From Clostridia bacterium (GTDB lineage: Bacteria; Bacillota; Clostridia; Oscillospirales; CAG-272): a DNA stretch of 64,000 nt. The notes below the pieces were generated by a model. The model worked only from the letters and a program-made list of their open reading frames with translations, made no database searches and had not been told where the DNA came from. Where the stretch lies: NCBI GenBank assembly GCA_017503105.1, contig JAFVTS010000010.1:1-64000 (forward strand), read 5' to 3'. This document shows positions 3,000 to 48,949 of the stretch, in pieces. The translations under genes were made by a program, and so were the position numbers. How positions within the stretch are numbered: position 1 is the stretch's first letter; each line of letters starts with the position of its first letter.

Positions 3000-3521
3000 A
3001 TGTCAGAAGAAAAAAAGCTCATCGTCGCACCGTCCGAATACAGACACATAGTAGAGGGCGGCGACAAAATAGTAAAATACGAAAACAACCTCGTCACCCT
3101 TATTCTTGACAGTGGCGAAGCTATTGAAGCTCTTGAGCCGAGAAGACTCTTCCCCGTTTCAAAGCGCGACGTTTACATAAGCCTTCTTGACAGCGAGGGA
3201 ATAGAGCGCGGACTTATACGCGCCCTCTCGGACCTTGACGAAGCTTCGCTTTCGGTCGTTGAAGAAAGCCTGAACGACTACTACCTCGTTCCGAAGATCA
3301 CAAAGATACTCTCCATTACGGAAAAATCGGGAACGATAAGATGGACGGTGGTAACGGAGCGCGGGGAAAAGTGCTTTGACGTCAGAAACCGAAATCACGA
3401 TATTCGCGTATCCAAGGACGGCAAGGTCAGAGTTCGCGACTCGGACGACAACCGTTACGAGATCGACGACTACCGCCTTCTCGATTCAAGAAGCCGTGCA
3501 AGGCTCATATCTTATTTGTAA
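3000..3521 (+). CDS. DUF1854 family protein, partner of the upstream ABC exporter
   Basis: 173 residues matching the DUF1854 pattern: an N-terminal beta segment, a RRLFPVSKRDVYISLLDSEG core (residues about 48-67), a central helix ending near NDYYLVP, a repeated beta region with IRWTVVTERGEKCF, and a C-terminal DDNRYEIDDYRLLDSRSR. There is no membrane segment or signal peptide, so it should be cytosolic. It lies four bases after the ABC gene stop, so the two are almost certainly co-translated. Family members are consistently encoded with zinc-ribbon ABC exporters; a regulatory or coupling subunit role is inference. The end of the gene enters the palindrome at 3515-3536. Confidence 0.85.
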   Translation: MSEEKKLIVAPSEYRHIVEGGDKIVKYENNLVTLILDSGEAIEALEPRRLFPVSKRDVYISLLDSEGIERGLIRALSDLDEASLSVVEESLNDYYLVPKITKILSITEKSGTIRWTVVTERGEKCFDVRNRNHDIRVSKDGKVRVRDSDDNRYEIDDYRLLDSRSRARLISYL

Positions 3522-3572
3522 ATTTAAGTTTACAAAAATTGCCCGCATTGAAGATAAAAACTCGACACGGGT
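3515..3572. repeat. dispersed composite element, copy 1 (palindrome plus ACACGGGT)
   Basis: TTTGTAAA (3515-3522), six bases, then its inverted copy TTTACAAA (3529-3536); 28 bases later ACTCGACACGGGT ends at 3572. Same composite design as the other copies listed. Confidence 0.6.
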
Positions 3573-3594
3573 ACACACGTTTGTTATAAACAGC

Positions 3595-3630
3595 AAAAAG
3601 GCGGAGAACGCAAGGTTCTCCGCCTTTTTC
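3595..3630. terminator. bidirectional Rho-independent terminator
   Basis: GGCGGAGAAC/GTTCTCCGCC stem with A-tract before and T-tract after, between the convergent DUF1854 and UPF0210 genes. Confidence 0.85.
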
Positions 3631-3666
3631 TCTTGTGCGGTCTTCCGGCGAGCCGCTTTTTCTCTT

Positions 3667-16587: not shown

Positions 16588-16620
16588 TTTACATTTTCCC
16601 AAAGCGTGCCATACCGTGTT
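16577..16620. repeat. dispersed composite element, copy at the hrcA end
   Basis: GTAAATTTTAGTTTAC (16577-16592) followed 20 bases later by ACCGTGTT (16613-16620), a one-base-shorter form of ACCCGTGTT shared with the copy at 31210. Confidence 0.55.
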
Positions 16621-21513: not shown

Positions 21514-21557
21514 TGTAAATTTACATTTACATTTTTTAAATCATACCGAACCCGTGT
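21514..21557. repeat. dispersed composite element copy
   Basis: Perfect palindrome TGTAAATTTACA (21514-21525) with ACCCGTGTTAA 25 bases downstream (21550-21557 core). Confidence 0.6.
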
Positions 21558-24216: not shown

Positions 24217-24232
24217 CGTTTCACGTGAAACA
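24217..24232. other. parS site 1
   Basis: CGTTTCACGTGAAACA, one mismatch to the canonical 16-mer TGTTTCACGTGAAACA; the 14-base core is perfect. Confidence 0.92.
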
Positions 24233-24336
24233 CGGCTTTGCGGTATGTTTGAGACGTTGACCGTGGGAACAGAACCTCGTATAACGCATTTTGTCCTCCT
24301 TAAGATAAACCGATCAAAAAGCACTCTTAAATCCTC

Positions 24337-24352
24337 TGTTTCACGTGAAACA
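24337..24352. other. parS site 2
   Basis: Exact TGTTTCACGTGAAACA. Confidence 0.97.
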
Positions 24353-24489
24353 GCCAAGAAGCCGAAATTTTTTAATAAAATCAAGGCAAAAAGGCCGTGG
24401 CGCAAATATAAACAATTGCTAAGCAAAATAATTGCGGCAAAAAGAGAAGAAAGGCGGCTTTGCACAGCAAATCCACGTAAAAAACCGAA

Positions 24490-24505
24490 TGTTTCACGTG
24501 AAACA
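24490..24505. other. parS site 3
   Basis: Exact TGTTTCACGTGAAACA. Confidence 0.97.
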
Positions 24506-24957
24506 CCTCGTTTTTTCCACTTTGCTCGCTTGAAATCCGAATTTTTGCCGAAAAAGTAATATTAAACCGCTCGGCGCCAGCTCCTCGGCAAATTAAAACT
24601 ACTTAAAGAAAATAAAACTTCAGATCTCGGTCGCAGCCATACAGAACCGAACTCAGATCAAAGTTTTATATCCAAAAAGAGATGCTTTATCGTTGAAATT
24701 CAAAATTCAGCTGAAAAAACAGCGTTTTAAGGCAGAAAATGCAAAAAAATCAGCCAAAACGCATCTGAAGTCCGTACATTATTTCAAAATAAGCGTACTT
24801 TATACGGAAATGAGCGCAAATAACGGCAAAAAAAGCACGGCTACGGTTATGGGAGCTCGCAACAGCAAAGATCAGATCTCACGCCTCAAATACCGTTTCT
24901 CGCAGTTTAAGAGCCAACTCGCCCTCAGAAAAGCAATATTTTATATATAAATATATA

Positions 24958-24977
24958 AAATATTTAATATATTTATG
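24958..24977 (+). repeat. 20-bp direct repeat flanking parA, left copy
   Basis: AAATATTTAATATATTTATG, identical to 25829-25848. It lies just ahead of the parA promoter. Confidence 0.7.
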
Positions 24978-24985
24978 AAAATATA

Positions 24986-25015
24986 TTGACAAGTCGGGTA
25001 TTAAAATGGTATAAT
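24986..25015 (+). promoter_or_regulatory. sigma-A type promoter for parA
   Basis: TTGACA (24986-24991), 18-base spacer, TATAAT (25010-25015), about 50 bases before the start codon. Confidence 0.8.
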
Positions 25016-25065
25016 ATAATGAAAGAGTGCGTAAAAAAGCGTATTTTCTGTATTTGGAGGCAACA

Positions 25066-25830
25066 ATGGCAAAAGTTGTATCATTCTCAAATCAAAAGGG
25101 CGGGGTAGGGAAGACCACCTCGTGCGTAAATATATCCGCTCAGGTTGCGAGCAAGGGTAAAAGAGTTCTTATGATAGATATGGACCCCCAGGGCAACGCT
25201 ACGAGCGGTCTCGGTTTACCAAAGTCAAAAATCAAAAAGACCATATACGACGTTATAATAGGCAGATGCGATATAAAAGAGGCAGTCATCAAGACGGCTT
25301 TCAAGAATTTATCGGTCGTTCCGGCAACAATCGACCTTGCAGGAGCCGAGCTTGAGCTCTACGACCTCGAAGAAGGCGCCGAAAACTTCGCTAAAATCGC
25401 TTTAGATTCGATAAAAGACGATTACGACTACATATTCATCGACTGTCCGCCTTCTCTTGGAATGCTGACCGTTAAAGCGCTTTCAATATCGGACGGCATC
25501 GTAATACCGATGCAATGTGAGTTCTATTCCCTCGAAGGTATGTCGCAGCTCTTAAATACCGTGAAGAAAATAAGGCAAATATACAATCCGAGCCTTCAGA
25601 TAGTGGGAATCCTCCTTACAATGTACAACGGACGCCTCACGCTGACGTATCAAGTGGTCGCGGAGCTTAAAAAATACTACTCTGACATACTTTTCAAGGT
25701 TCCTATTTCAAGAACGGTACGTCTCTCCGAGGCTCCCGGGTACGGAAAGCCGATCTGCTACCACGATCCTTACGGCAAAGGCTCGTTAGAGTACGCTGCC
25801 GTAGCAAAAGAGCTTATGATGCGCATTTAA
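25066..25830 (+). CDS. parA: chromosome partition ATPase ParA/Soj
   Basis: 254 residues starting MAKVVSFSNQKGGVGKTTS, the deviant Walker A (KGGVGKTT, residues 11-18) of the ParA/MinD class; the Walker A' region DMDPQGNATSG is near 40 and YIFIDCPPSLGMLTVKAL near 117. ParA dimers bind DNA and move or load ParB-parS complexes, and Soj also controls DnaA in Bacillus. The ATG at 25066 is preceded by TTGGAGG; an in-frame codon at 25027 falls close to the promoter and is rejected. Three parS sites lie upstream and two downstream before parB. The stop codon starts the second 20-bp repeat. Confidence 0.96.
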   Translation: MAKVVSFSNQKGGVGKTTSCVNISAQVASKGKRVLMIDMDPQGNATSGLGLPKSKIKKTIYDVIIGRCDIKEAVIKTAFKNLSVVPATIDLAGAELELYDLEEGAENFAKIALDSIKDDYDYIFIDCPPSLGMLTVKALSISDGIVIPMQCEFYSLEGMSQLLNTVKKIRQIYNPSLQIVGILLTMYNGRLTLTYQVVAELKKYYSDILFKVPISRTVRLSEAPGYGKPICYHDPYGKGSLEYAAVAKELMMRI

Positions 25831-25848
25831 ATATTTAATATATTTATG
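25829..25848 (+). repeat. 20-bp direct repeat flanking parA, right copy
   Basis: Exact copy of 24958-24977; it includes the last bases of the parA TAA stop codon. Confidence 0.7.
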
Positions 25849-25920
25849 CGCGTGCGCGAATGATTCTGTTAGTTTGAAGATTCTCGCGCGTGTGCGATAA
25901 ATATTTTACACGCGTGCGCG
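25848..25920. repeat. cluster of alternating purine-pyrimidine GC words
   Basis: GCGCGTGCGCG (25848-25858), CGCGCGTGTGCG (25885-25896) and CGCGTGCGCG (25911-25920) stand in otherwise AT-rich DNA between parA and parB. A related CGCGCGTGCGTG is at 41759, upstream of dnaA. Confidence 0.6.
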
Positions 25921-25994
25921 CAAGCTTAAAGCTTCGTTTTTGATGTAATTTCACAAAATTCAACTAAAACAGCATTTTTTACGAAAAAATACGA

Positions 25995-26010
25995 TGTTTC
26001 ACGTGAAACA
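25995..26010. other. parS site 4
   Basis: Exact TGTTTCACGTGAAACA in the parA-parB gap. Confidence 0.97.
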
Positions 26011-26080
26011 ATTGCGAAATCGTCCTGTTTTTCGGGTTTTCAACAATATTTTTGTTGAATTTGTTCAATTCGCAACTCAG

Positions 26081-26096
26081 TGTTTCACGTGAAACA
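26081..26096. other. parS site 5
   Basis: Exact TGTTTCACGTGAAACA, 81 bases before the parB start. Confidence 0.97.
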
Positions 26097-29176: not shown

Positions 29177-31108
29177 TTATATATCCATTATTACGGGAAG
29201 TATCATAGGCTTTCTCTTCGTTTCCTTGGTTATAAAGCGTCCAAGATCGTCGCGTATCATCATTTTTATCTGCGCGAAATCGTAAATTCCGCGCGCAAGA
29301 GCTCTTTCAAGAGTTGCGGCAGCTATCTTTCTTGCTCCCACCATCAGCTCCTCTGACTCCTTGACGTAGACGAATCCGCGAGAAACGATGTCGGGCCCCG
29401 AAATTATCTCACCCGCCCCGAGATCGACGGTTGCCACGACGACTACAAGACCGTCCTCGGAAAGATGCTTTCTGTCACGCAGGACCACGCTTCCGATATC
29501 TCCGACACCCGAGCCGTCCACCAGGACTCTTCCCGAAGGAACGGTGCCGTTGAACTTAGCTCCGCCGCGTCCGAGCTCAAGAACCTTACCTATCTCCGAA
29601 ATAAAGATGTTCTCGGAAGGAATACCCATAAATTCCGCTATTTCCTTATTTGCGTAAAGATGCCTGTCCTCGCCGTGAATTGGCATAAAGTATTTAGGCT
29701 TCAAAAGAGCCATCATAAGCTTTATCTCTTCCTTGCAGGCGTGACCCGAAACGTGAACGTCCTCGGTAGAATCGTTTACGACCTTCACGCCATTTTTAAC
29801 GAGAGCGTTTATTATCTTTCCGACAAGCTTTTCGTTTCCAGGAATCGCGCTCGCCGAGAGCACTACGACGTCACCCGACGAGAGCTTCACCTTATCGTGC
29901 TCCGAAAAGGCTATTCTGTAAAGAGCCGACATCGGCTCTCCCTGGCTGCCCGTGGTTATAAGCGTGATCTGCTCCGGCTTGAATCTTTTTATCTCGCTTA
30001 TATCTATTAAAACACCGTCCGGCAAGTCCATATATCCGAGCTCCGCCGCGGCGCCTATAACGTTCACCATACTTCTTCCGAGGACGGCGACGCGTCTGCC
30101 GTGGGCGGCACTTGCGTTGATTATCTGCTGAACTCTGTGCACGTTTGATGAAAACGTGGCGATTATAAGCCTTTTATCCTCATATTGAGAGAATATCCTC
30201 TCAAGCGACGAGCCTACCGTGCGCTCGGACGGCGTATATCCGCTTCTCTCCGAGTTGGTCGACTCGCAAAGCAACAGATCGACTCCGTCGCGCCCTATTT
30301 CACCTATTCTTACAAGGTCCATAATCCTTCCGTCGATCGGCGAAACGTCGAGCTTGAAGTCTCCCGTGTGGAATACCGTTCCCGCGGGCGTATAAAGCGC
30401 GATGGCGCAAGCATCGGCGATAGAGTGATTGACGTGGATGAATTCGGCACTGATCGAGCCGAGCCTTACCGTATCGCCTGCTTCAACCGTTTTAAGCCTC
30501 GGCTGGAAGGACGGGGGATTTTCATCAAGCTTTCCCTCTATTATTCCAAGAGATAACTTAGTTCCGTAGATCGGAACGTCAAGCTGTGAGAGGACGTAAG
30601 GAATTGAACCGATGTGATCCTCGTGTCCGTGGGTTATAAGTATTCCCTTTATCTTATGGGCATTTGCCGTCAGATATGAAATGTCCGGAATTACGAGATC
30701 TACGCCGAGCATATCGTCGTCGGGAAATCCCATTCCACAGTCAATTATAACTATATCGTCACCGCACTCAAAGGCGGTCATATTTTTTCCGATCTCCTGA
30801 AGTCCGCCAAGCGGAATTATGCGCAAGGTGGCACCCGTGTTAAGTTTTTTGTTTTTATTTTGTAAAGTATAGTTGTATTTATTTTTGCTTTGATTTCTTT
30901 TGGTCTCGTTTTTAACGCGCAAGGAAGGCTCACGCCCCTTTTGCTCGGCAGCCTGTGCTTTCTTTTGGGAAGGCTTTGCGGCAGAGTCGTTCTTCGCCGC
31001 AGGTCTTCTCTTTTTAGCAAACTTATTCTTTACAACCTTCTTTTGCTGCACGGGGGATTTAGCTCCCTCGTTCTTTTTTCTGTTCTTTTCTTCTTTTTTT
31101 TCGTTCAT
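29177..31108 (-). CDS. rnj: ribonuclease J
   Basis: 643 residues. RNase J is a metallo-beta-lactamase 5'-3' exo/endoribonuclease. The catalytic core starts near residue 96 (LRIIPLGGLQEIGKNM) and has the HGHEDH metal motif near 157-163, FHTGDFKLD near 245 and the beta-CASP GSQGEPMSAL block near 390. The first 95 residues are an unusually long, Lys/Arg/Gln-rich, low-complexity extension, compared with about 10 residues in most RNase J1 proteins; it could bind RNA or partners (inference). An ACACGGGT copy and a degenerate palindrome fall exactly in this extension. Confidence 0.95.
   Translation of the reverse strand: MNEKKEEKNRKKNEGAKSPVQQKKVVKNKFAKKRRPAAKNDSAAKPSQKKAQAAEQKGREPSLRVKNETKRNQSKNKYNYTLQNKNKKLNTGATLRIIPLGGLQEIGKNMTAFECGDDIVIIDCGMGFPDDDMLGVDLVIPDISYLTANAHKIKGILITHGHEDHIGSIPYVLSQLDVPIYGTKLSLGIIEGKLDENPPSFQPRLKTVEAGDTVRLGSISAEFIHVNHSIADACAIALYTPAGTVFHTGDFKLDVSPIDGRIMDLVRIGEIGRDGVDLLLCESTNSERSGYTPSERTVGSSLERIFSQYEDKRLIIATFSSNVHRVQQIINASAAHGRRVAVLGRSMVNVIGAAAELGYMDLPDGVLIDISEIKRFKPEQITLITTGSQGEPMSALYRIAFSEHDKVKLSSGDVVVLSASAIPGNEKLVGKIINALVKNGVKVVNDSTEDVHVSGHACKEEIKLMMALLKPKYFMPIHGEDRHLYANKEIAEFMGIPSENIFISEIGKVLELGRGGAKFNGTVPSGRVLVDGSGVGDIGSVVLRDRKHLSEDGLVVVVATVDLGAGEIISGPDIVSRGFVYVKESEELMVGARKIAAATLERALARGIYDFAQIKMMIRDDLGRFITKETKRKPMILPVIMDI
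30833..30877. repeat. dispersed composite element inside the rnj 5' coding region
   Basis: GGTGGCACCCGTGTTAAG (core 30833-30840), 21 bases, then GTAAAGTATAGTTGTA (30862-30877). Coded as NTGATL and neighbouring residues of the low-complexity extension. Confidence 0.55.
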
Positions 31109-31198: not shown

Positions 31199-31465
31199 TT
31201 ACCCCGTATACCGTGTTAAAATAAATAGGCTTATTGCGATTGCCAGAGCAGATATAAAACCGGCAAAAAAAGCAAGAAGCCTACCGTCTTTTTTTGTTTT
31301 TTCTTTTGTGCTTTCCTCTATGAGCTTGTTTGCCTCTTTTATAAAATCTCCGTGTCTTTCGTCAAGAGTCACGTCCCGTGACAGTACAAAATAAGCTTCG
31401 TCGATCATAGGACTGTCAGTCTTTTTCAAGCAAACTACTCTTCTTTGATATCCTCTCAAGTCCAA
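31199..31465 (-). CDS. small single-helix membrane protein
   Basis: 88 residues from a TTG at 31465 with GAGGTG upstream. Residues 1-40 have a conserved-looking VVCLKKTDSPMIDEAYFVLSRD segment, followed by a charged helix and one C-terminal membrane helix (LLAFFAGFISALAIAISLFIL, near 63-83). The segment resembles small Clostridia proteins of unknown role. It lies between the 31566 XRE gene and rnj on the same strand. Its end overlaps a shortened dispersed word (31210-31217). Confidence 0.65.
   Translation of the reverse strand: MDLRGYQRRVVCLKKTDSPMIDEAYFVLSRDVTLDERHGDFIKEANKLIEESTKEKTKKDGRLLAFFAGFISALAIAISLFILTRYTG
31210..31217 (-). repeat. shortened dispersed word ACCGTGTT
   Basis: ATACCGTGTTAAA, the same one-base-deleted variant as at 16613, lying at the 3' end of the small membrane gene. 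Confidence 0.45.
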
Positions 31466-32085: not shown

Positions 32086-32814
32086 TTATCGCTTGTTAAG
32101 CTCATTTTCCAACTCTTTGATTTTATCCTGATCTTCATTGTAGACGGCGAAGGTCGGAGTATCGAGCTTCCAACCCGTCGCATCTTCAATAAGATCGACC
32201 TCTACGGTCTTTTTCTGAGTTTTTTCCGAAGACGTACCTGCGTCCTTTGTGACGGTTATGCTTATGGAAACGGTAATTTTTTCTCCGTTAACGTCCACGA
32301 CCTTTAAAGTCGAGTAATCGTAAGTCACAAGATCCGTCTTTTTTCTTTTGTAGGTCGTGTCTACCATTATGACTTTTCTTTCCACGTCCTTGCCGTTTAT
32401 ATCCTGCTCGATCCTTACGTCACCGTAATAACGCGTGTGAGAATCCACGCTTCCGTATAAAACACCCAAGAAAATATTATCCGCGTATCCGGGTGTATAT
32501 ACCTTAGTTATAAGAGTTCTCAAACCGTCGAAGTCGTTTATCTCTTCGCCAAGCTTCTGTTCGTAGCTTTGTATACTTCTCCCGTCAACCTCTTTATATA
32601 CGGAGCTGTTCGTATCCAAAGGATCGGGACTTAATCCTTCTCCAAAGAGGATATCCTCTATTATCGCCGACTTTTTTATAAGCTTTTCAGCCGCCGCGAT
32701 GACCTCAGCCTCGTCGTAATCCCTGTCGCAGGAAACAAAAGAGGTAAATACCGTTGAAAAGAGAAGAACTATAATAAATAATTTATTTATAATTCCCGTT
32801 TTATTCTTCATCAC
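32086..32814 (-). CDS. putative lipoprotein
   Basis: 242 residues from GTG at 32814 (or ATG at 32811). A signal sequence [20 protein letters not shown] ends in a lipobox with Cys near residue 29, so the mature protein should be lipid-anchored on the outer face. The rest is a soluble alpha/beta domain with no recognised signature; a region near 180-215 reads like a repeated beta-strand segment. The gene overlaps the end of gyrA by 14 bases, indicating translational coupling with gyrase, an odd partner for a lipoprotein. Confidence 0.75.
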
Positions 32815-35371
32815 TTTCCGATGAAGGAATTTCTCCCTCTTCCTCCTCAGTCACGATTACTTTTTCTTCTGCTTCTGTGCTTTTTTCTATCTCTTTTTCT
32901 ATTTTTTCGCTTGACTCTTCTATTTCTTCCTGCTTCTCAAGTCTTGCGACGTTGTTGATAATACAGCCGTCGGAAAGACGCATTATTATAACGCCCGTTG
33001 CCGTTCTTGAATAAACGTTGATACCAGAAACCGAGGTGCGTATTATCGTTCCTTCGTTGGTGATGAGCATTATGTCGTCATCGTCAGAAACGGTGATTAT
33101 AGAAGAGAGCTTACCCGTCTTTTCGCTTATCTTATGGCAAGCAACGCCCTTTCCGCCTCTGTTCTTCATCTCACGGAAATCGTCGAAGCTCGTTCTCTTA
33201 CCCATACCTTTTTCCGTAACGGTAAGAAGAGTTTTGCCTTCCTCAACTCTTGCAGCTCCGACAACGACGTCATCACCTACGAGAGAAATTCCGCGCACGC
33301 CTCTTGCGCCTCTTCCCATACATCTTACGTTATTTTCGTCAAATCTTACGGCAAGACCGTTTCTCGTCGCAAGTATAATGTTCTCCGTACCGTTAGTATG
33401 TCTTACGAAGAGCAATTCGTCGTTTTCGTCAAGATTTATAGCGATCTTTCCCGCGCTTCTCTGGTACTCAAACTCCTTGAGAAGAGTTCTCTTTATAACG
33501 CCGCGCTTGGTTATCATCGTAAGATATTCACCCTCTGTAAATTCCGTGATGGGAATTATCGAGGTAACGAACTCACCCTCTGTAAGATTGATTATATTTA
33601 CGAGATTCGTGCCCTTTGCGGTCTTTGACGCCTCGGGAATTCTGTACGCCTTCTTTGCATAGACTCTTCCCTTATTGGTGAAGAACATAAGAAGTGAGTG
33701 GCTGTTTGAAACTATAACGTCCTCAACGAAGTCGTCTTCCTTCGTCTTCATACCTATAACGCCCTTACCGCCTCTGTTCTGAGCGGAATACTCACTCGCC
33801 TTCTGGCGCTTGATATATCCCGTGTGGCTGACGGTTATAACGCAGGTGTGACGCTCGATAAGATCCTCAAGATCTATCTCCTCAGACGCCTCAACGAGCT
33901 CGGAGCGTCTTTCGTCACCGTACTTTTTCTTTATTTCTTCAAGCTCGGTCTTGAGTATCTCGCGCACCTTTCCCTCGTCGGCAAGAATAGAGCGTAATTC
34001 CGCAACTATTCCCTCAAGCTTTGCTATTCTGTCCTCTACCTTCTGCCTTTCGAGTCCTGAGAGCTTGCCGAGAGTCATCTCGACTATCGCCTGAGCCTGA
34101 GCGTCTGAGAGCGCGAATCTTTCAATAAGAGCTTCCTTTGCCGCAGGAATAGACTCGCTTGACTTGATTATTTTTATGACCTCGTCAATATTATCTATCG
34201 CTATCTTATATCCCTCAAGTATATGCATCTCGCGAAGAGCCTTATCAAGGTCAAACTGAGTTCTCTTTATTATGACGCTCTTTTGAAATTCAATATACTT
34301 ATCAAGAATCTGAAGAAGATTCATAGTCTTAGGCTCACCGCCGTCTATGACGAGCATATTGACGGAGCAGGTATCCTGAAGCTGAGTATACTTATAAAGC
34401 TGATTGAGTATTACCTCTGCGTTAGCGTCGCGCCTGTACTCAACGACTATTCTCATACCGCCTCTGCCCGACTCGTCGCGAAGGGCGGTAAGACCCTCTA
34501 TCTTCTTTTCTCTGTGGAGATTTGCGATAGTTTCGACGAGCATAGACTTATTTACCATATAAGGTATCTCGGTAAATACTATTTGCCTCTTATCATCGTT
34601 TATCTCGGCTCTTGCTCTTATGTAGATTCTGCCCTTACCCGTTTCGTAAGCCTCGCGGATTCCTCTTGAGCCGTAAATAATGGCAGCGGTAGGGAAGTCG
34701 GGACCCTTGATGAACTGCATAACGTCTTCCGTCGTGCATTCGGGATTGTCTATTCTGTATACCGTTCCGTCTATTACCTCGGTCAAATTATGTGGCGGAA
34801 TATTAGTAGCCATACCGACGGCGATACCGACGGAGCCGTTTACGAGAAGGTTTGGGAAGCGCGATGGAAGCACGGTCGGCTCATCACGCGTGTTATCAAA
34901 GTTTCTTACCATAGGAACGACGTTCTTCTCTATATCCGTCATCATATGGTTTGCCATACGGCTCATTCTCGCCTCAGTATAACGGTATGCCGCAGGCGGG
35001 TCACCGTCAACGTTACCGAAGTTTCCGTGACCCTCGATAAGAGTATAGCGAAGAGAGAAATCCTGCGCCATTCTTACCATAGTTCCGTAAACGGCGCTGT
35101 CACCGTGAGGATGGTATCTACCGAGAACGTTTCCGACGGTGGTAGCGGATTTTCTGAACGGCTTATCGTGAGTGAGATTATCCTCGTACATAGCGTAAAG
35201 AATACGTCTTTGTCCGGGCTTCATTCCGTCTCTTATATCGGGAAGAGCACGGGCGGTAATAACGCTCATAGAATACTCTATGAATGACGTTTTTACCTCT
35301 TTTTCCATATCTCTTTCCTCTATTTTTTGTAAAGGAAATTCAATATCGGAGCTTTTATATGTATGTTCCAT
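32801..35371 (-). CDS. gyrA: DNA gyrase subunit A
   Basis: 856 residues. GyrA cuts and rejoins DNA during supercoiling. The catalytic tyrosine is Y131 in AAYRYTE, and the quinolone-determining helix reads HPHGDSAVY with serine at 92, the susceptible-type residue. The C-terminal beta-pinwheel has repeated GGKGV motifs and the GyrA box-like [11 protein letters not shown]. The N-terminus is about 10 residues longer than usual and the C-terminus ends in a Glu-rich tail. It lies 39 bases after gyrB on the minus strand and its stop overlaps the lipoprotein start. Confidence 0.97.
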
Positions 35372-35410
35372 TTTTATATCCTTTCGGGGGAATGTAACTT
35401 AATATTGGTC

Positions 35411-37336
<1,926 letters not shown>

Positions 37337-37366
37337 TTAAATGAAACCTTCCTTCATTTTAATCTT

Positions 37367-37639
37367 TTAGTCGTTATTTATTTCCGTAATTTTTTCCAAA
37401 GCTCTTAATTTCAAGCCCGAGGTGGATATTCTTGAAAGAGAGATCCTCACGCCGTCTTTATCGTCGTAAACCACGAATGAGCGCGGAAGATCCGTGTCGT
37501 CGTATTCCAAGAGCCCTTCTTTTTGCTTTTTGTTTATATAATTTTTTGTGATAGATGAAACGGTTGCGGTATCAAGATCAAAAATACCTATTATTCTATT
37601 TTTTCTTATACTTTTACCGTTACCCACGTGAAGAAACAT
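37367..37639 (-). CDS. remB: extracellular matrix regulator RemB (DUF370 family)
   Basis: 90 residues from ATG at 37639, chosen for GGAGG six bases upstream and the family N-terminus MFLHVGNGKSI. RemB/YaaB-type proteins (DUF370) lie between recF and gyrB in many Bacillota; the RemA paralogue is a DNA-binding activator of matrix genes. The DLDTATVSSITKNYINKKQKEG block is typical. The gene overlaps the end of recF by 20 bases, showing tight coupling in the replication operon. Its regulatory targets here are unknown. Confidence 0.85.
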   Translation of the reverse strand: MFLHVGNGKSIRKNRIIGIFDLDTATVSSITKNYINKKQKEGLLEYDDTDLPRSFVVYDDKDGVRISLSRISTSGLKLRALEKITEINND

Positions 37640-38726
37640 AATTTCCTCCGACGACCTCTGTGACAGAATCGGCAAATTTCATATTTTCATCGTTTTCACA
37701 AGAGGTTATTATTACTTGCTTTTCTTTAATTCCGTTTATCACGAACGTGCGCCTCTTCTCATCAAGCTCGCTTAAAACGTCGTCAAGAAGATAAACGGGA
37801 TATTCTCCGCAAATAGCTCTGTTTACCTCACCCTCGGCAAGCTTCAACGAAAGCACGGCAGACCTTTGCTGTCCTTGAGAGGCAAAGCTTCTTGAATTTT
37901 CTCCGTTTATATTTATCTCAATATCGTCTCTGTGAACGCCAAAGAGAGTAACACCCGCAGCTATTTCTCTTTCTACGCTTGAATTTAAAAGGCTTATATA
38001 AGCTTTTTTTATATCTTCTTTATCTTCAAGCTCTTCGTCTATCCCACTTTTATAAAAGAGAGAAAGCTCTTCTTTTCCGTCTGATATTTTATACTGTATT
38101 TCTTTTGAATAAACGTCAAGGCTTTTCAAATATTCTTTTCTGTACTTATAAATGTAAGAAGCGTATTCAGCCATAGTTTCGGACCAGGAATTAAGCTCGC
38201 CTATATCGAAATAAAATCCTGACTTCGCGTTTTTTAAAATACAGTTTCTGTTTTCAAGAGCTTTTTTATAATCAGCGTATAATTTTAAGTAAGATGGGAA
38301 ACACTGTGATGCCGCGATATTTAAGAAGCTGCGCCTTTCCTCAGGCCCGTCTTTAATTATTTTCAAATCGTCAGGAGAGAAGAGAACGGTTTTAAAAGAA
38401 CCTATCATCTCGGTTACCTTGCTTATTTTATATCCGTTCTTCTTTCTTCTTCTTTCTCTTCCGAAAAATGCGTATTCAAGCGACCCGTCACCCGAAGAAT
38501 CCTCGTATTCGATAAATATACGAAATCCTTCGGCTCCGTTTTTTACAAGCTCCTTTTCATCGGACGTTCTGAACGACCTTCCTCTTGAAAAAATATAAAT
38601 TCCCTCAAGAGCGTTAGTCTTTCCTTGCGCGTTTTTTCCGTGAAGGAGGTTTATCCCGGGAGAAAAGCTTATATCGCATTTTTCTATATTACGGAAATTT
38701 TCCGCACAAAATCTTTTTACTATCAT
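37620..38726 (-). CDS. recF: DNA replication and repair protein RecF
   Basis: 368 residues. RecF is an SMC-like ATPase that helps load RecA at gaps. Walker A GKNAQGKT is at residues 30-37, FSRGRSFRTSDEKELV near 46, the signature FASQGQQRSAVLSLKLAE near 287 and Walker B YLLDDVLSELDEKRR near 313. It starts eight bases after dnaN and overlaps remB at its end. Confidence 0.96.
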   Translation of the reverse strand: MIVKRFCAENFRNIEKCDISFSPGINLLHGKNAQGKTNALEGIYIFSRGRSFRTSDEKELVKNGAEGFRIFIEYEDSSGDGSLEYAFFGRERRRKKNGYKISKVTEMIGSFKTVLFSPDDLKIIKDGPEERRSFLNIAASQCFPSYLKLYADYKKALENRNCILKNAKSGFYFDIGELNSWSETMAEYASYIYKYRKEYLKSLDVYSKEIQYKISDGKEELSLFYKSGIDEELEDKEDIKKAYISLLNSSVEREIAAGVTLFGVHRDDIEININGENSRSFASQGQQRSAVLSLKLAEGEVNRAICGEYPVYLLDDVLSELDEKRRTFVINGIKEKQVIITSCENDENMKFADSVTEVVGGNYVSSRG

Positions 38727-38734
38727 TAAAGCCT

Positions 38735-39898
38735 TCAGTTAGAAGAATTTTCTTTAAGCTTTATGGGAAGAACTATGTAGATATAATCAAAGTCCTCACT
38801 CTTCTCGGCAGCCTCTATCGTAATAGCAAGCGTGGGACTCTTCATACCGAGAACTATATTTTCACCCTCGGCAACTCTGACGCTGTTCATTATATAACGG
38901 CAGTTGAATCCCATCTCAATGTCGCTTCCCTCGTGGACGCATTCTATCTCGTCCTTTACACGGCCGTTTACGGAAGTGGAATTTATATGGAATATCTGAT
39001 CCTCCGCCTTTATCTTTACGTATCCCATATCGCTTCCCTTTATCTTCTCGTCGGCTATTATATTAGCTCTTTCAAGAGAGTCAATAAGCTTTTCCTTATC
39101 TATCGTAACGATAATATCGTTTTCCTTAGGTATGATCCTGTTATAATCTATATACTCGCTGTCGATGGTTCTCGTAAAGAATATCGTTTCTCCCTTTCTT
39201 ACTATCGCGTGTTTTCTTGAAACGTATATCTTTACCTTTTCGTTTTCGCCGTCAAGAAGAATTTTTGAAAGCTCGGGAAGTGCGTGACCCGGAATTATAA
39301 GGCTTATATCATCAAAATTACTGTCGCCTATTGAATAAATTTCACACTTAGCGGTGCATTTTGAAAGTATAAACGTATTGCAGGAAACTACCTCAAGAGT
39401 ATTTCCTTTTATTTTAAAGAAAGCTCCGCAAAGCATCTGCCTCGTAGATTGATCGGCAACGGAGTGAATTACCTTTCCTATCATCTTGGCAACGATGTCA
39501 CTGTCTATCTCAAATCCCTTATCCGTTACAAGATCGGGGAAGGAGGGGAAATCCTCACCCTTCATACAGGACATAGAGAACGAAGCTCTTCCGCTTCTTA
39601 TATAACAGTTATAAGAGCCGTCTATTTCTATCTCTATCTCATCTTCCGAAAGAGATCTTACGGCTTGCATAAGTCTTGTGGCGTTTATTATGTACTTGCC
39701 GCCCTCCTCGATCGATTCCGCGTCTACGGTTATTCTTATACCCTTAGTCATATCGTAAGAGGAAATCCTTATTTTGTCGTCTTCCGTAGTTTCTATAAGA
39801 AAGCCCTCTATGTTGGTTATGGTGTTTTTCTTTGAAACCGTTCCCATAGCGGTCATAAGCGCGTCTGTGAATACGTCTCTTTTAACTGTTATTTTCAT
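38735..39898 (-). CDS. dnaN: DNA polymerase III beta sliding clamp
   Basis: 387 residues. The clamp dimer encircles DNA and tethers the polymerase. Three repeats of the clamp fold are apparent; the start MKITVKRDVFTDALMTAM and the C-terminal IYIVLPIKLKEN segment fit the family, although the classic PMR ending is replaced by PIKL. The ATG follows AGGAGG by six bases. It lies between dnaA and recF on the minus strand, separated from dnaA by an AT-rich 257-base gap that may hold the unwinding element. Confidence 0.95.
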   Translation of the reverse strand: MKITVKRDVFTDALMTAMGTVSKKNTITNIEGFLIETTEDDKIRISSYDMTKGIRITVDAESIEEGGKYIINATRLMQAVRSLSEDEIEIEIDGSYNCYIRSGRASFSMSCMKGEDFPSFPDLVTDKGFEIDSDIVAKMIGKVIHSVADQSTRQMLCGAFFKIKGNTLEVVSCNTFILSKCTAKCEIYSIGDSNFDDISLIIPGHALPELSKILLDGENEKVKIYVSRKHAIVRKGETIFFTRTIDSEYIDYNRIIPKENDIIVTIDKEKLIDSLERANIIADEKIKGSDMGYVKIKAEDQIFHINSTSVNGRVKDEIECVHEGSDIEMGFNCRYIMNSVRVAEGENIVLGMKSPTLAITIEAAEKSEDFDYIYIVLPIKLKENSSN

Positions 39899-40155
39899 TT
39901 TTTAACTTCCTCCTGTGTGTTTTTTCGGCGAAGCCGTAAAGAATAAATATAATTATATAGGTTGTTGATATTGTTGTAGTGTGTGTCTAAATTGTTTAAA
40001 ACTCATTTTTCTGTTGATTTTGTTCACTTTTTCGGTCTTTAATTTAAACATTTTCTTTGTTCATTTGCGTTTTTAAAAAGATGATTTTTAATGAACAAAA
40101 ATATAAACGTGTATTAAACAGGGTTTTATAAACAATTAAACAAAAAATTGTTGAA
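39899..40155. other. AT-rich dnaA-dnaN gap, candidate oriC
   Basis: Very AT-rich, without a gene. TTTGTTCA occurs twice on the plus strand (near 40018 and 40058) and once inverted (near 40092). No TTATCCACA box was found. The position between dnaA and dnaN is a known oriC location in Bacillota, so assignment rests on context. Confidence 0.45.
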
Positions 40156-41592
40156 TTATTTTATATCCTTAACTTCTTTAATGAGAGCTAATATTTCAGC
40201 CTCTTTATTTTTAACCGTTCTCATCATAAGATCCACTTTTTCAAGAGAATATATCATAGTAGAGTGATTACGTCCTCCGAGTGCCTGTCCTATCTCATCA
40301 AGAGTAAGCGTGGTTATACTCTTAATAATATGAGCGGCAACTTGCCTTGCGTTAGTAATGGTTCCCGTTTTCTTTTTTGATTTTATGTCCTCTACCGAAA
40401 CGCCGTAGTGCTTGCTTACTATCGAAAGTATTCTCTCCACCATAATATCGGGAGGAATATTACCTGGGTCAACAACGGAAATAGCCTCGTCTATTACCGA
40501 TTTTGTTATCTCCGTGCCCGAGAAGGTCTTCATAGCGTAGAGCTTCGTTATAACACCCTCAATCTGTCTTATGTTGGATATAAGCCTCTCCGCTATGTAA
40601 TAAACGAGATTTTGCGGTATCTCAAGCCCGAGCGCTTTAGCTTTTTTAAGTATTATAGCGCTCCTAAGCTCGATATTAGGCGGCTGAACGTCAACTATAA
40701 GACCCATTTCAAAACGAGTATGAAGTCTGTCCGTCAGAGGCTTTATTTCCTTCGGTGGACGGTCTGAGGTAAGAACTATTTGCTTTTCACTCTCATAAAG
40801 AATGGTGATCGTATTGAATATCTCTTCCTGCATAGATTCTTTTCTTGCAATAGACTGTATATCGTCTATCAGAAGAACGTCTGCGGAACGATATTTTTCC
40901 TTAAATAAATAGGTGGAGTTGGTATTTATTGAAATAATAAGCTCGTTTAAAAATTCCTCGCATTTTTTGTAGATTATCTTAAGCTCCGGGTTGTTTTTTC
41001 TCAAGTGATTTATAATAGCGTAAAGAAGGTGAGTTTTACCAAGACCCGAGTTTCCGTGGATAAAGAGAGGGTTGAACTGATTTGAAGACGGCTCCGTAGC
41101 AACGGCGAAGCACGCCGCCTTAGCAAATTTATTAGAATCACCTTCTATGAAATTATCAAACGTATACTGCTCTATCAGCGACTTTTTATCGGTGTTGTTT
41201 CCTTTCAGAAAATCGCTGATCATCTCAGACTTTTTCTCTTCCTCCAAGCGCTCCCGCTCTTGCTCCTCGGGTGTCTTTACGGGAGTTCTTTTTATTTCGT
41301 CTATATAAGAGGGAACGAGCGGAAAATCCTTCTCGGGATCCTTTTCGCTTTCTATTTTTATGTTTACGCTAAATCCGATAACTTCCTCAAGAGTTTGCTC
41401 TATTACGGTGCCGTATTTTTGAACGAGTATCTTCTTTTTCAGAGGCGACGGAGCTAAAAAAACAGCCTCTTGCTCACTTAACGAAACAAGCTTTAAATTT
41501 CCGAACCAAAGATTGAATATCGATTTAGAGGTGTTAAGCTTTTGCTCTATGAGATTCAAAAATTCATTCAGTATATCCGAAAGTTCGTCCAT
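40156..41592 (-). CDS. dnaA: chromosomal replication initiator DnaA
   Basis: 478 residues from the ATG at 41592, nine bases after AAAGGAG; a TTG three codons earlier abuts the ribosome site and is rejected. DnaA opens the origin. Domain I starts at the N-terminus, the AAA+ domain has Walker A GNSGLGKT near 178-185, LLIDDIQSIARKE near 240 and the arginine-rich TSDRPPKEI near 273. Domain IV carries NARQVAAHII and GGRNHSTMIYS, where most DnaA proteins have GGRDHTTV: the aspartate and second threonine that contact the DnaA box are replaced by N and S. This may alter box preference. Confidence 0.97.
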   Translation of the reverse strand: MDELSDILNEFLNLIEQKLNTSKSIFNLWFGNLKLVSLSEQEAVFLAPSPLKKKILVQKYGTVIEQTLEEVIGFSVNIKIESEKDPEKDFPLVPSYIDEIKRTPVKTPEEQERERLEEEKKSEMISDFLKGNNTDKKSLIEQYTFDNFIEGDSNKFAKAACFAVATEPSSNQFNPLFIHGNSGLGKTHLLYAIINHLRKNNPELKIIYKKCEEFLNELIISINTNSTYLFKEKYRSADVLLIDDIQSIARKESMQEEIFNTITILYESEKQIVLTSDRPPKEIKPLTDRLHTRFEMGLIVDVQPPNIELRSAIILKKAKALGLEIPQNLVYYIAERLISNIRQIEGVITKLYAMKTFSGTEITKSVIDEAISVVDPGNIPPDIMVERILSIVSKHYGVSVEDIKSKKKTGTITNARQVAAHIIKSITTLTLDEIGQALGGRNHSTMIYSLEKVDLMMRTVKNKEAEILALIKEVKDIK

Positions 41593-41657
41593 CTTAATCA
41601 ACTCCTTTATCGGGTAATTTAAAATATTTTATATACTAATAGTAAAAGTTATAATAT

Positions 41658-43161: not shown

Positions 43162-43608
43162 TTATCCTCCGATAAGGGAATAGACGTAGTAAATTACACC
43201 GTAGATAACGCCCGACAAAAGGCCGAAAATTATAACGGGTCCCGCCACGGTGAATATTTTTGCCCCGACTCCAAGTACGTATCCTTCGCTTGCCGAGTCC
43301 ATAGCCTCGCTCGTTACGGCGTTGGAAAATCCCGACACGGGAACGAGAGTTCCCGCACCCGTAAAGCGCGCTATTTTATCAAAAACACCAATGCCCGTGA
43401 GAAGCGACGCTATAAAAATTACCGAAAGGGTAACCAGACTTACGGAAGTTTTTTCTTCCGCGCCGAAGAAAACGTAGACTTTAAGCAAGACCTCGCCAAA
43501 AAGACAGATAAGTCCGCCAAAAAAGAACGCTCGCAGTGAATTTTTTAACACGGGTGAGGACTTAGAGTGCTTTTTTATCAGTTTTTTCTTTTCTTCTTCA
43601 GACATCAT
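43162..43608 (-). CDS. spoVAC: stage V sporulation protein AC
   Basis: 148 residues, membrane protein with four helices and the family blocks PVLKNSLRAFFFGGLICLFGEVL and GVFDKIARFTGAGTLVPVSGFSNAVTSEAMDSASEGYVLGVGAKIF. SpoVAC is the mechanosensitive channel subunit for dipicolinate. Two ATGs are adjacent (43608, 43605) and the ribosome site GCAGGT is weak. It heads the spoVAC-AD-AE unit next to dnaA. The 5' end of the gene encodes a dispersed word on the opposite strand. Confidence 0.93.
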   Translation of the reverse strand: MMSEEEKKKLIKKHSKSSPVLKNSLRAFFFGGLICLFGEVLLKVYVFFGAEEKTSVSLVTLSVIFIASLLTGIGVFDKIARFTGAGTLVPVSGFSNAVTSEAMDSASEGYVLGVGAKIFTVAGPVIIFGLLSGVIYGVIYYVYSLIGG

Positions 43609-46069: not shown

Positions 46070-48706
46070 TTATATTGAAGAAAGTATCTCCTCTGCCTTC
46101 GAAAGAGCCGCGTCGATCTTGTCAATATCGCGTCCGCCGCTCATCGCGCTGTCGGGGCGTCCGCCGCCTTTGCCGCCCGTTACTGCCGCAACCTCTCCGA
46201 GAAGCTTGCCCGCGTGCGCGCCCGCCTTTACCGCGTCGGGACCCGCTGCCGCGATGAAGTTGAGCTTTCCGTCCGAAACGAGTGCGAATACCGCGACGGC
46301 GTCGGGATATTTTGCCTTGACCGTGTCGGCAAGACCTCTTACCGCGTCGGGCTTCATTCCGTCAACCCTTGCCGTAAGGAGCTTGAATTTGCCGACTTCC
46401 TTGATTCCCGAGAGAAGCGCGCTCGCTTTGCTCTCGGCTATCTTTGCGTTCGCGGAGTCAAGCTCGCGCTTGAGCTCCTTTATCTCAGCCTGAAGTGCCT
46501 GAGCCTTGGTTGCTATTGCCGCGGAGTTGGGGCTCTTGAGCTCCTTTGCGGTCTCCTTTATGAGCTCTTCCTTTTCGCCGAGAAGCGCAAGGACGCCAAG
46601 TCCCGTCGTGCCCTCTATTCTTCTGACGCCTGCCGCAACGCTCGACTCGGAAATGATCTTGAAAAGACCGATAACGCCCGTGTTGGGGACGTGAGTACCG
46701 CCGCAGAGCTCGGTGGAGGACGAGCCTATCTTAACGACTCTGACTTCCTTGCCGTACTTTTCGCCGAAGAGAGCCATAGCGCCCATCTTCTTAGCGCTCT
46801 CGGGGTCGGTGAGGACGGTGTCACAGCCCTCTGCAAGAAGGATGTTGGTGTTTACTATTGCCTCGACCTTAGCGATCTCATCAGCCGTCATAGCGGCAAG
46901 GTGAGTAAAGTCAAAGCGCACTCTGTGCTCGTCAACGTAAGAGCCCGCCTGCTCAACGTGCTTGCCGAGGACGGCTCTCAGAGCTGCTTGGAGGAGGTGT
47001 GCCGCGGAGTGGTTTCTCATAATTGCCGCGCGGCGTATGGGGTCGACAGTAAGGGTGAGCGTGTCACCGAGCTTGATCGAGCCTTTTTCTATTTTAACCT
47101 CGTGAATATAGATGCCGTTGGTCTTCTTGGTGTCGCAAACGGTGATAGCCACGTCAGCGCCCGTGATAGAGCCCGTGTCGCCGACCTGACCGCCGCCCTC
47201 GCCGTAGAAGGGCGTTTTGTCGAATATAAGGGAGCACTCACCCTCGGAGATCTCGTCTGCGGCGCCCTCGTCGGTGATTATTGCAAGGAGCTTTGCCTCG
47301 CAGGAAGCCTTCGCGGGATCTGCTACGTAGCCCGTAAATTCCGTCGCGGGAAGGTTTTCAAGAAGGTTCTTTGATGAATCAGCCCAGCCCGAGATGTTGC
47401 CTCTTGCCGCACGCGCGCGAGTTTTTTGCTCGTTCATAAGCTCGGCAAACGCCGCCTCGTCAACGGAAAGACCGTTTTCCTCCGCGATCTCGCGAGTGAG
47501 GTCAACGGGGAAGCCGAAGGTGTCGTAAAGCTTGAAGGTGTCGGCGCCCGAAAGGGTCGTCTTGCCCTCGGCTTTTGCCGCGTCTATAAGCGATGAAAGG
47601 ATGCCAAGTCCTGCGTCGATGGTAGCGTTGAAGCGCTCTTCCTCAAGAACGATGACCTTGAGAACGTAATCGCGCTTCTCGCGAAGCTCGGTGTAAGCGT
47701 CCTCGTTCTGCGAAATAACTATCTCGCAAAGACCCTTCAAGAACAATCCGTCTATTCCGAGGAGCTTTCCGTGACGGCAGGCACGTCTTATGATCCTTCT
47801 GAGAACGTAGCCTCTTCCCTCGTTCGAGGGGATAACGCCGTCGGAGATCATAAACGTAGCGCTTCTTACGTGGTCGGTAACGACGCGGATCGAAATATCG
47901 TCCATCTTGTCGTCGCCGTACCTTTTGCCCGCGATGGAGCAGACGGTATCAAGGATCCTTCTCACCGTGTCTACCTCAAAGAGGTTGTCCACGCCCTGCA
48001 TTACGCAGGCAAGGCGCTCAAGACCCATACCCGTGTCGATATTTTTCTGCGCAAGCTCGGTGTAGTTGCCCGCGCCGTCGTTATTGAACTGAGAGAATAC
48101 GTTGTTCCAGATCTCCATAAATCTGTCACAGTCGCAGCCGGGCTTACAGTCGGGCGAGCCGCAGCCGTACTTCACGCCTCTGTCGAAGTATATCTCCGAG
48201 CAAGGACCGCAGGGACCCGAGCCGTGCTCCCAGAAGTTGTCCGCCTTGCCGAGCTTTACTATATGCTCCTCGGGCACGCCGATCTTATCGCGCCAGAGCG
48301 CGTACGCCTCGTCGTCCTTTTCGTAGACGGAGGGCCAGAGCAGATCTGTGGGGATCTCAAGGGTTTCCGTAAGGAATTCCCAAGCCCACGGAATAGCCTC
48401 GTTCTTAAAGTAATCGCCGAAAGAGAAGTTTCCGAGCATCTCGAAATACGTGCCGTGACGCGCGGTGTGACCGACTCTTTCAAGGTCGGGCGTTCTTATG
48501 CACTTCTGGCAGGTGCAAACGCGCTTTCTCGGCGGCTCTTCCTCTCCCGTAAAATATTTCTTCATCGGCGCCATACCGGAATTTATAAGAAGCAGGGATT
48601 TATCACCGTTCGGCACAAGCGAGAAGCTTGGAAGACGGAGGTGCCCCTTACTCTCAAAGAAAGAGAGATATTTTTCACGAAGCTCATTGAGCGAGGTCCA
48701 TTTCAT
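46070..48706 (-). CDS. alaS: alanine--tRNA ligase
   Basis: 878 residues, full length. The class II core starts MKWTSLNELREKYLSFFESKGH, with RTPDLERVGHTARHGTYFEMLGNFSFGDYFK near 70 and NIDTGMGLERL near 225. The editing domain has the HSAAH zinc motif near 563 and CGGTHVPNTG near 667; a coiled-coil and a Gly-rich C-Ala domain end the protein. A promoter is 36 bases upstream and no T-box leader fits between. AGGAG lies before the ATG. An ACCCGTGT word falls in the conserved NIDTGM codons. Confidence 0.98.
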   Translation of the reverse strand: MKWTSLNELREKYLSFFESKGHLRLPSFSLVPNGDKSLLLINSGMAPMKKYFTGEEEPPRKRVCTCQKCIRTPDLERVGHTARHGTYFEMLGNFSFGDYFKNEAIPWAWEFLTETLEIPTDLLWPSVYEKDDEAYALWRDKIGVPEEHIVKLGKADNFWEHGSGPCGPCSEIYFDRGVKYGCGSPDCKPGCDCDRFMEIWNNVFSQFNNDGAGNYTELAQKNIDTGMGLERLACVMQGVDNLFEVDTVRRILDTVCSIAGKRYGDDKMDDISIRVVTDHVRSATFMISDGVIPSNEGRGYVLRRIIRRACRHGKLLGIDGLFLKGLCEIVISQNEDAYTELREKRDYVLKVIVLEEERFNATIDAGLGILSSLIDAAKAEGKTTLSGADTFKLYDTFGFPVDLTREIAEENGLSVDEAAFAELMNEQKTRARAARGNISGWADSSKNLLENLPATEFTGYVADPAKASCEAKLLAIITDEGAADEISEGECSLIFDKTPFYGEGGGQVGDTGSITGADVAITVCDTKKTNGIYIHEVKIEKGSIKLGDTLTLTVDPIRRAAIMRNHSAAHLLQAALRAVLGKHVEQAGSYVDEHRVRFDFTHLAAMTADEIAKVEAIVNTNILLAEGCDTVLTDPESAKKMGAMALFGEKYGKEVRVVKIGSSSTELCGGTHVPNTGVIGLFKIISESSVAAGVRRIEGTTGLGVLALLGEKEELIKETAKELKSPNSAAIATKAQALQAEIKELKRELDSANAKIAESKASALLSGIKEVGKFKLLTARVDGMKPDAVRGLADTVKAKYPDAVAVFALVSDGKLNFIAAAGPDAVKAGAHAGKLLGEVAAVTGGKGGGRPDSAMSGGRDIDKIDAALSKAEEILSSI
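48029..48036 (-). repeat. ACACGGGT word inside alaS
   Basis: Encodes part of the strongly conserved NIDTGMGLER motif, so it may be coincidence. Confidence 0.25.
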
Positions 48707-48741
48707 AGAGTTTTTCTCCTTAAATATTTTGTCATTTATAA

Positions 48742-48771
48742 ATTATAGCACAGAACGTATATAAAAGTCAA
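48742..48771 (-). promoter_or_regulatory. sigma-A type promoter for alaS
   Basis: Minus strand TTGACT (48766-48771), 18-base spacer, TATAAT (48742-48747); leader about 30 bases. Confidence 0.7.
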
Positions 48772-48883
48772 TATTTAAAATAAAGAATATTTAATTTTGA
48801 AAGCTTATATTTTTTGCGTTTTAAGCAGAGCTCTCCGAAGCGCCGCGAAAGAACGGGGCGATTCGGGAAAAGCCGTTACCCCC

Positions 48884-48949
48884 ACCCCGTGTAAAGAAAA
48901 AGCGCTCGAAACGAGCGCTTTTTCTTTAAAAATGTTAATCAAAGTTTAC
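48884..48949. repeat. dispersed composite element, variant copy
   Basis: ACCCCGTGT (48884-48892, one extra C) and GTTAATCAAAGTTTAC (48934-48949) flank a terminator; the palindrome contains the stop codon of the 48935 gene. Rightmost copy seen in the window. Confidence 0.45.
48897..48924. terminator. Rho-independent terminator
   Basis: AAAAAGCGCTCG / CGAGCGCTTTTT perfect stem with loop AAA-rich, ends the oxidoreductase transcript. Confidence 0.85.

Follow-up and report, generated by a model that had tools for sequence, protein, structure and literature searches.

Repetitive extragenic palindromic (REP) sequences and the second class of bacterial interspersed mosaic elements (BIME-2) are enriched at the 3′ ends of enterobacterial genes, and under the twin-domain model the positive supercoils driven by transcription should meet where gene ends converge. 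In an extract of the Topo-Seq study of Escherichia coli gyrase, the enzyme's motif spans 130 bp and is symmetric, its flanks (-63 to -17 and 20 to 66) being periodic at 10.75 bp, and the enzyme's cleavage sites are over-represented in the Ori and NS-left regions and in BIME-2 and under-represented in Ter and Left (PMC6379681). An extract of another report describes a GC preference with a period of 10-11 bp in the gyrases of E. coli, Bacillus anthracis and Mycobacterium tuberculosis, and cleavage preferences of type II topoisomerases that vary among species, so that a lineage-specific word would be allowed (PMC12324340). Here we characterize a dispersed element found in a 64,000-nucleotide stretch of a Clostridia bacterium of the order Oscillospirales (assembly GCA_017503105.1, contig JAFVTS010000010.1, positions 1 to 64,000), hereafter the window. 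The element consists of the 8-bp word ACACGGGT, AT-rich flanks in helical phase with it and, at some sites, a partner palindrome resembling TGTAAAYTWWARTTTACA. With somewhat less than even confidence, we consider it a candidate strong wrapping site for DNA gyrase, working like the strong gyrase site (SGS) of phage Mu and like BIMEs. Among the titles listed in literature searches, none describes the ACACGGGT word or any dispersed element of this phased kind from Clostridia.

The genome containing the window (G000) is a fragmented metagenome-assembled genome of 2.60 Mb in 44 contigs, and the window's mnmG is similar to those of uncultured gut Clostridia (best identity 77%). Eleven contigs were sampled (1.19 Mb), of which 819,977 bases served for motif building and 371,770 were held out, and genes were called crudely for this analysis. 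In the motif-building sample ACACGGGT occurs 115 times against 15.9 expected from a third-order Markov model (z = 24.9, the highest of all 8-mers), a stronger excess than the first-pass annotation of the window had claimed, and genome-wide RACACGGGTNNNNNC matches 121 places against 3 for the reversed control. Since the excess outlasts an amino-acid-preserving shuffle of synonymous codons within genes (88 coding copies of ACACGGGT found, 15.9 expected over 30 shuffles), it acts at the DNA level; intergenic copies number 24 against 2.0 expected. Codon usage or a protein motif was rejected as the cause, the corresponding peptides occurring about as often as expected (found vs. expected: DTG 59 vs. 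62, NTG 41 vs. 44, YTG 55 vs. 48, HTG 20 vs. 22). A matrix iterated from the exact copies yielded the motif AAAWYTYR-ACACGGG-TNNSGNCNT, covering positions -8 to +15, and beyond about these limits 112 exact copies show no strong base conservation. At 12 bits the matrix finds 259 sites in the 820 kb (reversed matrix, 17) and 105 in the 371,770 bases outside its training set (reversed, 16), giving 364 sites in 1.19 Mb (reversed, 33); at this threshold we extrapolate to about 800 sites per genome, roughly a tenth of them by chance. By local GC skew, 144 sites lie on the leading and 115 on the lagging strand, and the exact copies within genes (63 sense, 25 antisense) have a ratio similar to that of the codon shuffles (11.1 to 4.8). 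The motif is without the polarity of FtsK-orienting polar sequences. Several other words and places were recorded along the way. ACACGCCCCC is over-represented in a second species, G002, as well (8 vs. 0.2). CGGTCTT/AAGACCG is over-represented in the 820 kb of G000 (455 vs. 162) and is possibly a Chi-like word or a codon context; its flanks carry no information and two 8-mers containing CGGTCTT are unphased, and it was treated as separate. At C23:3526/5100 and C25:55609/57183 of G000, pattern matches share the same letters and spacing, suggesting a duplicated segment or an assembly duplication.

When A+T content is folded about the word centre (n = 362 sites in G000), it peaks at 10.5, 20.5, 31.5, 42.5, 53.5 and 65 bp, with most power at periods of 10.75-11 bp, and the power at 10.75 bp over distances of 70-122 bp is about one-tenth of that over 14-66 bp. 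Each side is phased by itself, clearly so up to the fifth turn (z of 2.2 or more) and weakly at the sixth (z = 1.5 and 1.7); the 3-bp codon signal that also appears on single sides is cancelled by folding. The phasing is present in the sites that lack a palindrome (227 of 258), and in G002 (n = 73) the first three turns peak likewise. Because the matrix covers -8 to +15, it imposes the first peak, at about 10.5 bp; tests using the word alone escape this circularity, since they consider distances of 14-66 bp. In such tests ACACGGGT reaches a phasing power of 74.4, compared with at most 4.2 among 60 random 8-mers of five G/C with at least 60 copies (of 400 drawn) and at most 3.0 for five other common words, and it ranks first among 22,029 8-mers of G000, many of the runners-up overlapping it. 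A variant of the word, ACACGCCC, is also strongly phased (61 sites, power 20, in 1.19 Mb of G000) and might be a second core. In other genomes searched for comparable phased words (112 kb of G031, and G024 and G028), none was clear, the top 8-mers reaching 14-16 and many having small counts.

The partner palindrome was likewise found to be tied to the helical repeat. In the 1.19 Mb there are 35 palindromes (at most one mismatch in a 16-base core), and the whole of G000 holds 45, against 1 for the reversed control. A motif site of at least 10 bits lies within 75 bp of 27 of the 35, where 1.6 would be expected, and eight stand without one; the pairing that the first-pass annotation had proposed is thus upheld. 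It had put the partners usually 18-45 bases apart, which understates the regularity: the centre-to-centre offsets of the 27 pairs are 20, 22, 30-33 (15 pairs), 41-44 (six), 53 (three) and 59 bp (one), and these are phased at 10.75 bp (R = 0.82, p = 1.2e-8), nearly all falling at 2, 3, 4 or 5 turns on either side of the word. In the held-out contigs alone, seven of eight palindromes are paired, at 32, 32, 32, 33, 41, 42 and 53 bp. The palindrome occurs in all 13 near-group genomes examined, G000 included (2-57 matches with strands summed; controls 0-2), and in none of three more distant ones, whose G+C content of 53-60% makes AT-rich words rarer there. Pairing of word and palindrome is shown for G000 only; five palindromes with one mismatch in the examined stretches of G002 and the named relatives (L076-L091) have no motif site near. 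In G002 (L216-L235) several palindrome-like sites with up to two mismatches have a T-rich sequence such as ATTTTGNC after them in place of the word. An expectation-maximization model of the palindrome drifted to generic AT-rich DNA, and its later iterations were discarded. The palindrome was rejected as parS, canonical parS sites existing in G000, and although its halves resemble a XerD arm of dif, dif-like matches in the contigs examined appear only with 8 mismatches.

Sites are distributed unevenly, both among genes and along the chromosome. Their density is 1.78 per kb in convergent intergenic regions, 0.42 in tandem and 0.22 in divergent ones and 0.27 in the middle of coding sequences, an eight-fold difference between convergent and divergent regions, and the intergenic regions with a site are 33/98, 39/416 and 7/101, respectively. 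Palindromes follow the same order (5.9 per 10 kb convergent, 1.2 tandem, 0.6 divergent, 0.03 in the middle of coding sequences). In absolute terms, 275 of the 364 sites lie inside called genes, and density does not track the conservation of genes (0.29 as against 0.27 per kb). Hairpin stems across intergenic sites are not in excess (5/63 vs. 36/744 control positions), though a few single sites do lie in hairpins or hairpin loops, and 14 pairs of neighbours less than 150 bp apart were counted among 259 sites. Across the 11 contigs, which are unordered, density is heterogeneous (p = 7e-6), with 0.44 per kb on the oriC contig C32 and 0.13 per kb in the first 135 kb of C28. The whole of C28 (295 kb), complete among the RACACGGGTNNNNNC matches listed, which run in contig order through C35, holds 4 of the 121 pattern matches where 15 would be expected (P = 0.0009) and none of the 45 palindromes. 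Its GC skew and gene direction switch in a terminus-like manner, and on these grounds, in a fragmented assembly, C28 appears to contain the replication terminus.

The window is the oriC region, with dnaA, dnaN, recF, gyrB and gyrA in this order on the minus strand (32801-41601), and with parA-like and parB genes. A parS cluster at 24217-26096 has five members, of which four are perfect TGTTTCACGTGAAACA and the fifth has one mismatch, and since it lies beside parA-like and parB, the window contains the chromosome's partition centre. The sites of the element in the window and the genes for its candidate reader are as follows (scores in bits are those of the matrix).

3518..3533, no strand: palindrome, 43 bp (4 turns) from the word at 3565
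3565..3572, plus: core word ACACGGGT, convergent intergenic; 22.5 bits
6023..6030, plus: core word, coding; 25.2 bits
7208..7215, minus: core word, absent from the earlier list; 16.9 bits
9330..9337, plus: core word, coding; 26.9 bits
9722..9729, minus: variant core ACACGGGG; 17.4 bits
10289..10296, minus: core word in the convergent gap next to the mnmG 3′ end; 24.0 bits
12178..12185, minus: core word near the mnmG start, where relatives align ungapped; 18.6 bits
16577..16592, no strand: palindrome that overlaps a called gene's stop codon; the variant site at 16612 is 31 bp away
16612..16619, minus: variant core ACACGGTA; 12.5 bits
19071..19078, minus: core word, intergenic; 23.0 bits
20414..20421, plus: core word, intergenic; 20.8 bits
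21515..21530, no strand: palindrome, 31 bp from the word at 21550
21550..21557, minus: core word, convergent intergenic; 18.7 bits
22012..22019, plus: core word, antisense in coding sequence; 22.9 bits
27224..27231, plus: core word, intergenic, downstream of parB; 25.0 bits
27250..27265, no strand: palindrome, 30 bp from the word at 27224
30833..30840, minus: core word at the 5′ end of RNase J homology; 27.2 bits
30862: palindrome-like GTAAAGTATAGTTGTA, a poorer match, about 33 bp from the word at 30833
31209..31216, minus: variant core ACACGGTA; 16.5 bits
32801..35371, minus: gyrA, candidate reader; two GyrA-box-like motifs in the C-terminal domain
35411..37336, minus: gyrB, candidate reader
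43548..43555, plus: core word, antisense in a called gene; 26.4 bits
43631..43646, no strand: palindrome, 87 bp from the word at 43548, beyond the usual range
48029..48036, minus: core word in codons for IDTGMGLE, also found in a relative; this copy may be fortuitous; the gene is presumably alaS-like; 21.4 bits
48885..48892, minus: variant core ACACGGGG; 17.6 bits
48934..48949, no strand: palindrome, 53 bp from the variant site at 48885

All 13 positions of ACACGGGT in the first-pass annotation are exact, but its list lacked the fourteenth copy, at 7208. The one-base variants it had placed near 16613, 31210 and 48884 are present, with starts at 16612, 31209 and 48885, and its palindromes are positioned correctly to within a few bases, the one at 30862 being the poorer match. 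It had seen no copies in the right 15 kb of this stretch, and there is indeed no exact word after 48036; motif matches of 12-15 bits do occur at 49430, 50094 and 50471, with none after 50478. At the RNase J locus, where conservation of the site was sought, the anchor pattern matched just three sequences.

The word was searched in 59 genomes, namely G000 and 58 others (35 of the same genus and 23 of other families), several of them incomplete, down to 52%. Matches against reversed-control matches are 121:3 in G000, 52:2 in G016, 50:1 in G001, 48:0 in G002, 35:4 in G023, 34:3 in G007, 31:3 in G029, 22:2 in G006, 20:2 in G034, 15:2 in G018 and 13:1 in G011, while the remaining 25 genomes of the genus have 1-14 (controls 0-11) and the 23 genomes of other families 0-7 (controls 0-20). 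Comparison of GyrA in 29 of the 35 other genomes of the genus, made by identity and without a tree, places all word-rich genomes except G023 among the twelve whose GyrA is most like that of G000 (73-84% identity); G023 gave a ParC-like match only. Three of the twelve are word-poor (G014 8:0, G012 6:1, G031 2:1). The word excess is thus concentrated in the nearest relatives of G000 by GyrA identity. An aligned relative is available for 27 of 67 exact coding sites, and 48 of 65 alignments run ungapped across the site, so that the coding copies would have arisen mostly by substitution; the 17 gapped ones might include insertions. Two relatives carry other dispersed words: in G028 (L196-L215) repeat words around CTGTCATCCTGA include 10-mers present 33-35 times where 0.7-0.8 are expected, and in G024 (L236-L255) the near-palindromic TGACCGAGGTCA is over-represented, its 10-mers ACCGAGGTCA and TGACCGAGGT occurring 24 and 22 times vs. 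1.3, perhaps as a dispersed site of that genome's own.

Among proteins that might read the element we rank gyrase first, because AT periodicity of about 10.75 bp, symmetric and reaching about ±65 bp, is also what an extract on E. coli gyrase describes (PMC6379681), and because sites gather at convergent gene ends. In gyrase's strong sites, as here, the flanks are symmetric, with an AT/GC period of about 10.75 bp ending near ±65 bp, the sixth turn being weak in our data; the same extract also has cleavage sites favouring Ori over Ter, and here, among unordered contigs, the oriC contig C32 is dense and C28 sparse. The GyrA of G000 carries GyrA-box-like motifs. If gyrase is the reader, the GC-rich word would form the centre of the enzyme's grip and of the DNA bend, and the AT-rich tracts that recur at 10.5-11 bp to either side, with their minor grooves facing inward, would let about ±65 bp wrap easily. 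Where a palindrome is present, it would offer a contact at turn 2, 3, 4 or 5 that is particularly favourable or is stabilised by protein. Sites would collect where converging genes build up positive supercoils, with few on the apparent terminus contig, and might thereby be linked to supercoil removal. The element nevertheless differs from the Mu SGS and the Topo-Seq motif in its base-specific 8-mer core, its partner palindrome and its several hundred copies. With REP and BIME-2 it shares its dispersal and enrichment between genes, BIME-2 attracting gyrase according to the same extract (PMC6379681), but it differs in that most sites lie within called coding sequences, stems are not in excess and copies are not insertion-like.

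Several observations weigh against gyrase. The core is asymmetric, its bases are specified much more strictly than those of the degenerate E. coli motif, and wrapping gives no account of the exact bases of the palindrome. At the annotated gyrase cut site of phage Mu, our one calibrator, the AT phase of the right arm is about half a helical turn off if the dyad is the word centre, and fits only if the true dyad lies about 5-6 bp from it, which leaves a half-turn ambiguity in the dyad. G031, the closest genome by GyrA (84% identical), has no word excess (2 matches vs. 1 control). Confidence in gyrase stays somewhat below even for such reasons. Furthermore, A-rich 6-mers (AAAAAA and others) also have phased AT around them in G000, G002, G031 and G028, so that part of the AT phasing is a general property of these genomes, and the exact word falls outside the twelve best-phased 8-mers of G002. 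Avoidance of promoters might by itself explain why divergent regions have few sites, and the position of the terminus is drawn from skew and gene direction.

After gyrase, the next best reading, possible rather than probable, is that another DNA-wrapping or DNA-bending nucleoid protein, of the RemA or Lrp/LrpC kind or new, acts with a second dimer, bound to the palindrome on the same face of the helix, to organise the chromosome at gene ends. A base-specific core and a palindrome held on one helix face (27/35; R = 0.82) resemble two cooperating sequence-specific proteins, and between recF and gyrB lies an ORF (37367-37675) that we take to be RemB/DUF370-like. RemA and LrpC-type proteins have been suggested to wrap DNA, as an extract of that work has it (PMC8481266). 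Against such a protein, the Lrp family is present in genomes with and without the word, showing no correlation, and no member was matched in G007, G016 and G018, which carry the word (G016 and G018 being 72% and 63% complete); moreover, the length, symmetry and period of the element closely match gyrase. A broader formulation, likewise possible rather than probable, is a sequence-coded wrapping system: at several hundred positions a lineage-specific dyad word, AT tracts facing inward and, at some of them, palindromes spaced by whole turns would be recognised by a complex of two proteins dedicated to the task, setting supercoiling domains at convergent ends. The first-pass annotation had listed a protein-binding site among its possibilities; this is supported as a wrapping or bending complex rather than as an operator, because phasing runs over five to six turns per side and few divergent intergenic regions hold sites.

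Binding sites for a nucleoid-occlusion or segregation factor, like those of Noc (NBS) or SlmA (SBS), which keep division off unsegregated DNA, appear unlikely. The poverty of C28 in pattern matches and palindromes recalls NBS and SBS, which in an extract of PMC4726725 are chromosome-wide and under-represented in Ter, with the reservation that the terminus is here located by skew only. However, the sites in that extract are single palindromes, about 24-70 per genome, with nothing reported of several hundred sites, a convergent-end bias or long phasing, whereas the element has an asymmetric core with phased flanks (PMC4726725). The single ParB-family protein matched in G000 has Noc as its best NCBIfam model, albeit under the cut-off (243.6 of 315 bits), and its gene lies beside the parA-like gene and canonical parS. 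Spread of the word by competence, as a DNA-uptake sequence, is more improbable still. Like the uptake signal sequence (USS) of Haemophilus and the DNA uptake sequence (DUS) of Neisseria, the word is asymmetric and over-represented, on both strands, in coding and non-coding DNA and mostly in near relatives; its AT-phased flanks recall the AT-rich flanking tracts of USS, and ComEC is present in G000 and G002. Unlike USS and DUS, it is phased on two sides over five to six turns, and its intergenic sites have no excess of stems. Uptake is disfavoured because no pilus ATPase was found in G000: T2SSE (PilB/ComGA-type) gave no match in G000, G001, G002, G006, G023 or G029, several genomes of the comparison being incomplete. 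Matches in G007 and G018 are weak and partial (30.4 and 27.8 bits, over the cut-off, in frames of about 300 aa) and probably represent another ATPase, those in G016 and G034 are weak and below the cut-off, and strong ones are confined to G004, G012, G015 and G022, where the word has 3-8 matches. As to the earlier suggestion of a word for DNA uptake or like Chi, the word's excess and its confinement to near relatives fit, but a pilus-type ATPase was not found in G000 or G002, and long two-sided phasing is not a known feature of Chi. A miniature mobile element or its remnants, also among the earlier suggestions, is very improbable. The composite look, the dispersed copies and the 17/65 alignments gapped near the site would suit it, but miniature inverted-repeat transposable elements are insertion units in otherwise alignable DNA, and here 48/65 alignments are ungapped, the distance from word to palindrome changes in steps of whole helical turns, and exact copies lack strong conservation outside about -8 to +15.

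If the element is read by gyrase, this genome would have several hundred strong gyrase sites that are readable from its sequence and densest where theory puts positive supercoils, and it would allow a direct test of whether selection places topoisomerase sites. If the reader is not gyrase, the element would point to a new wrapping protein in Clostridia, one whose DNA code is defined.

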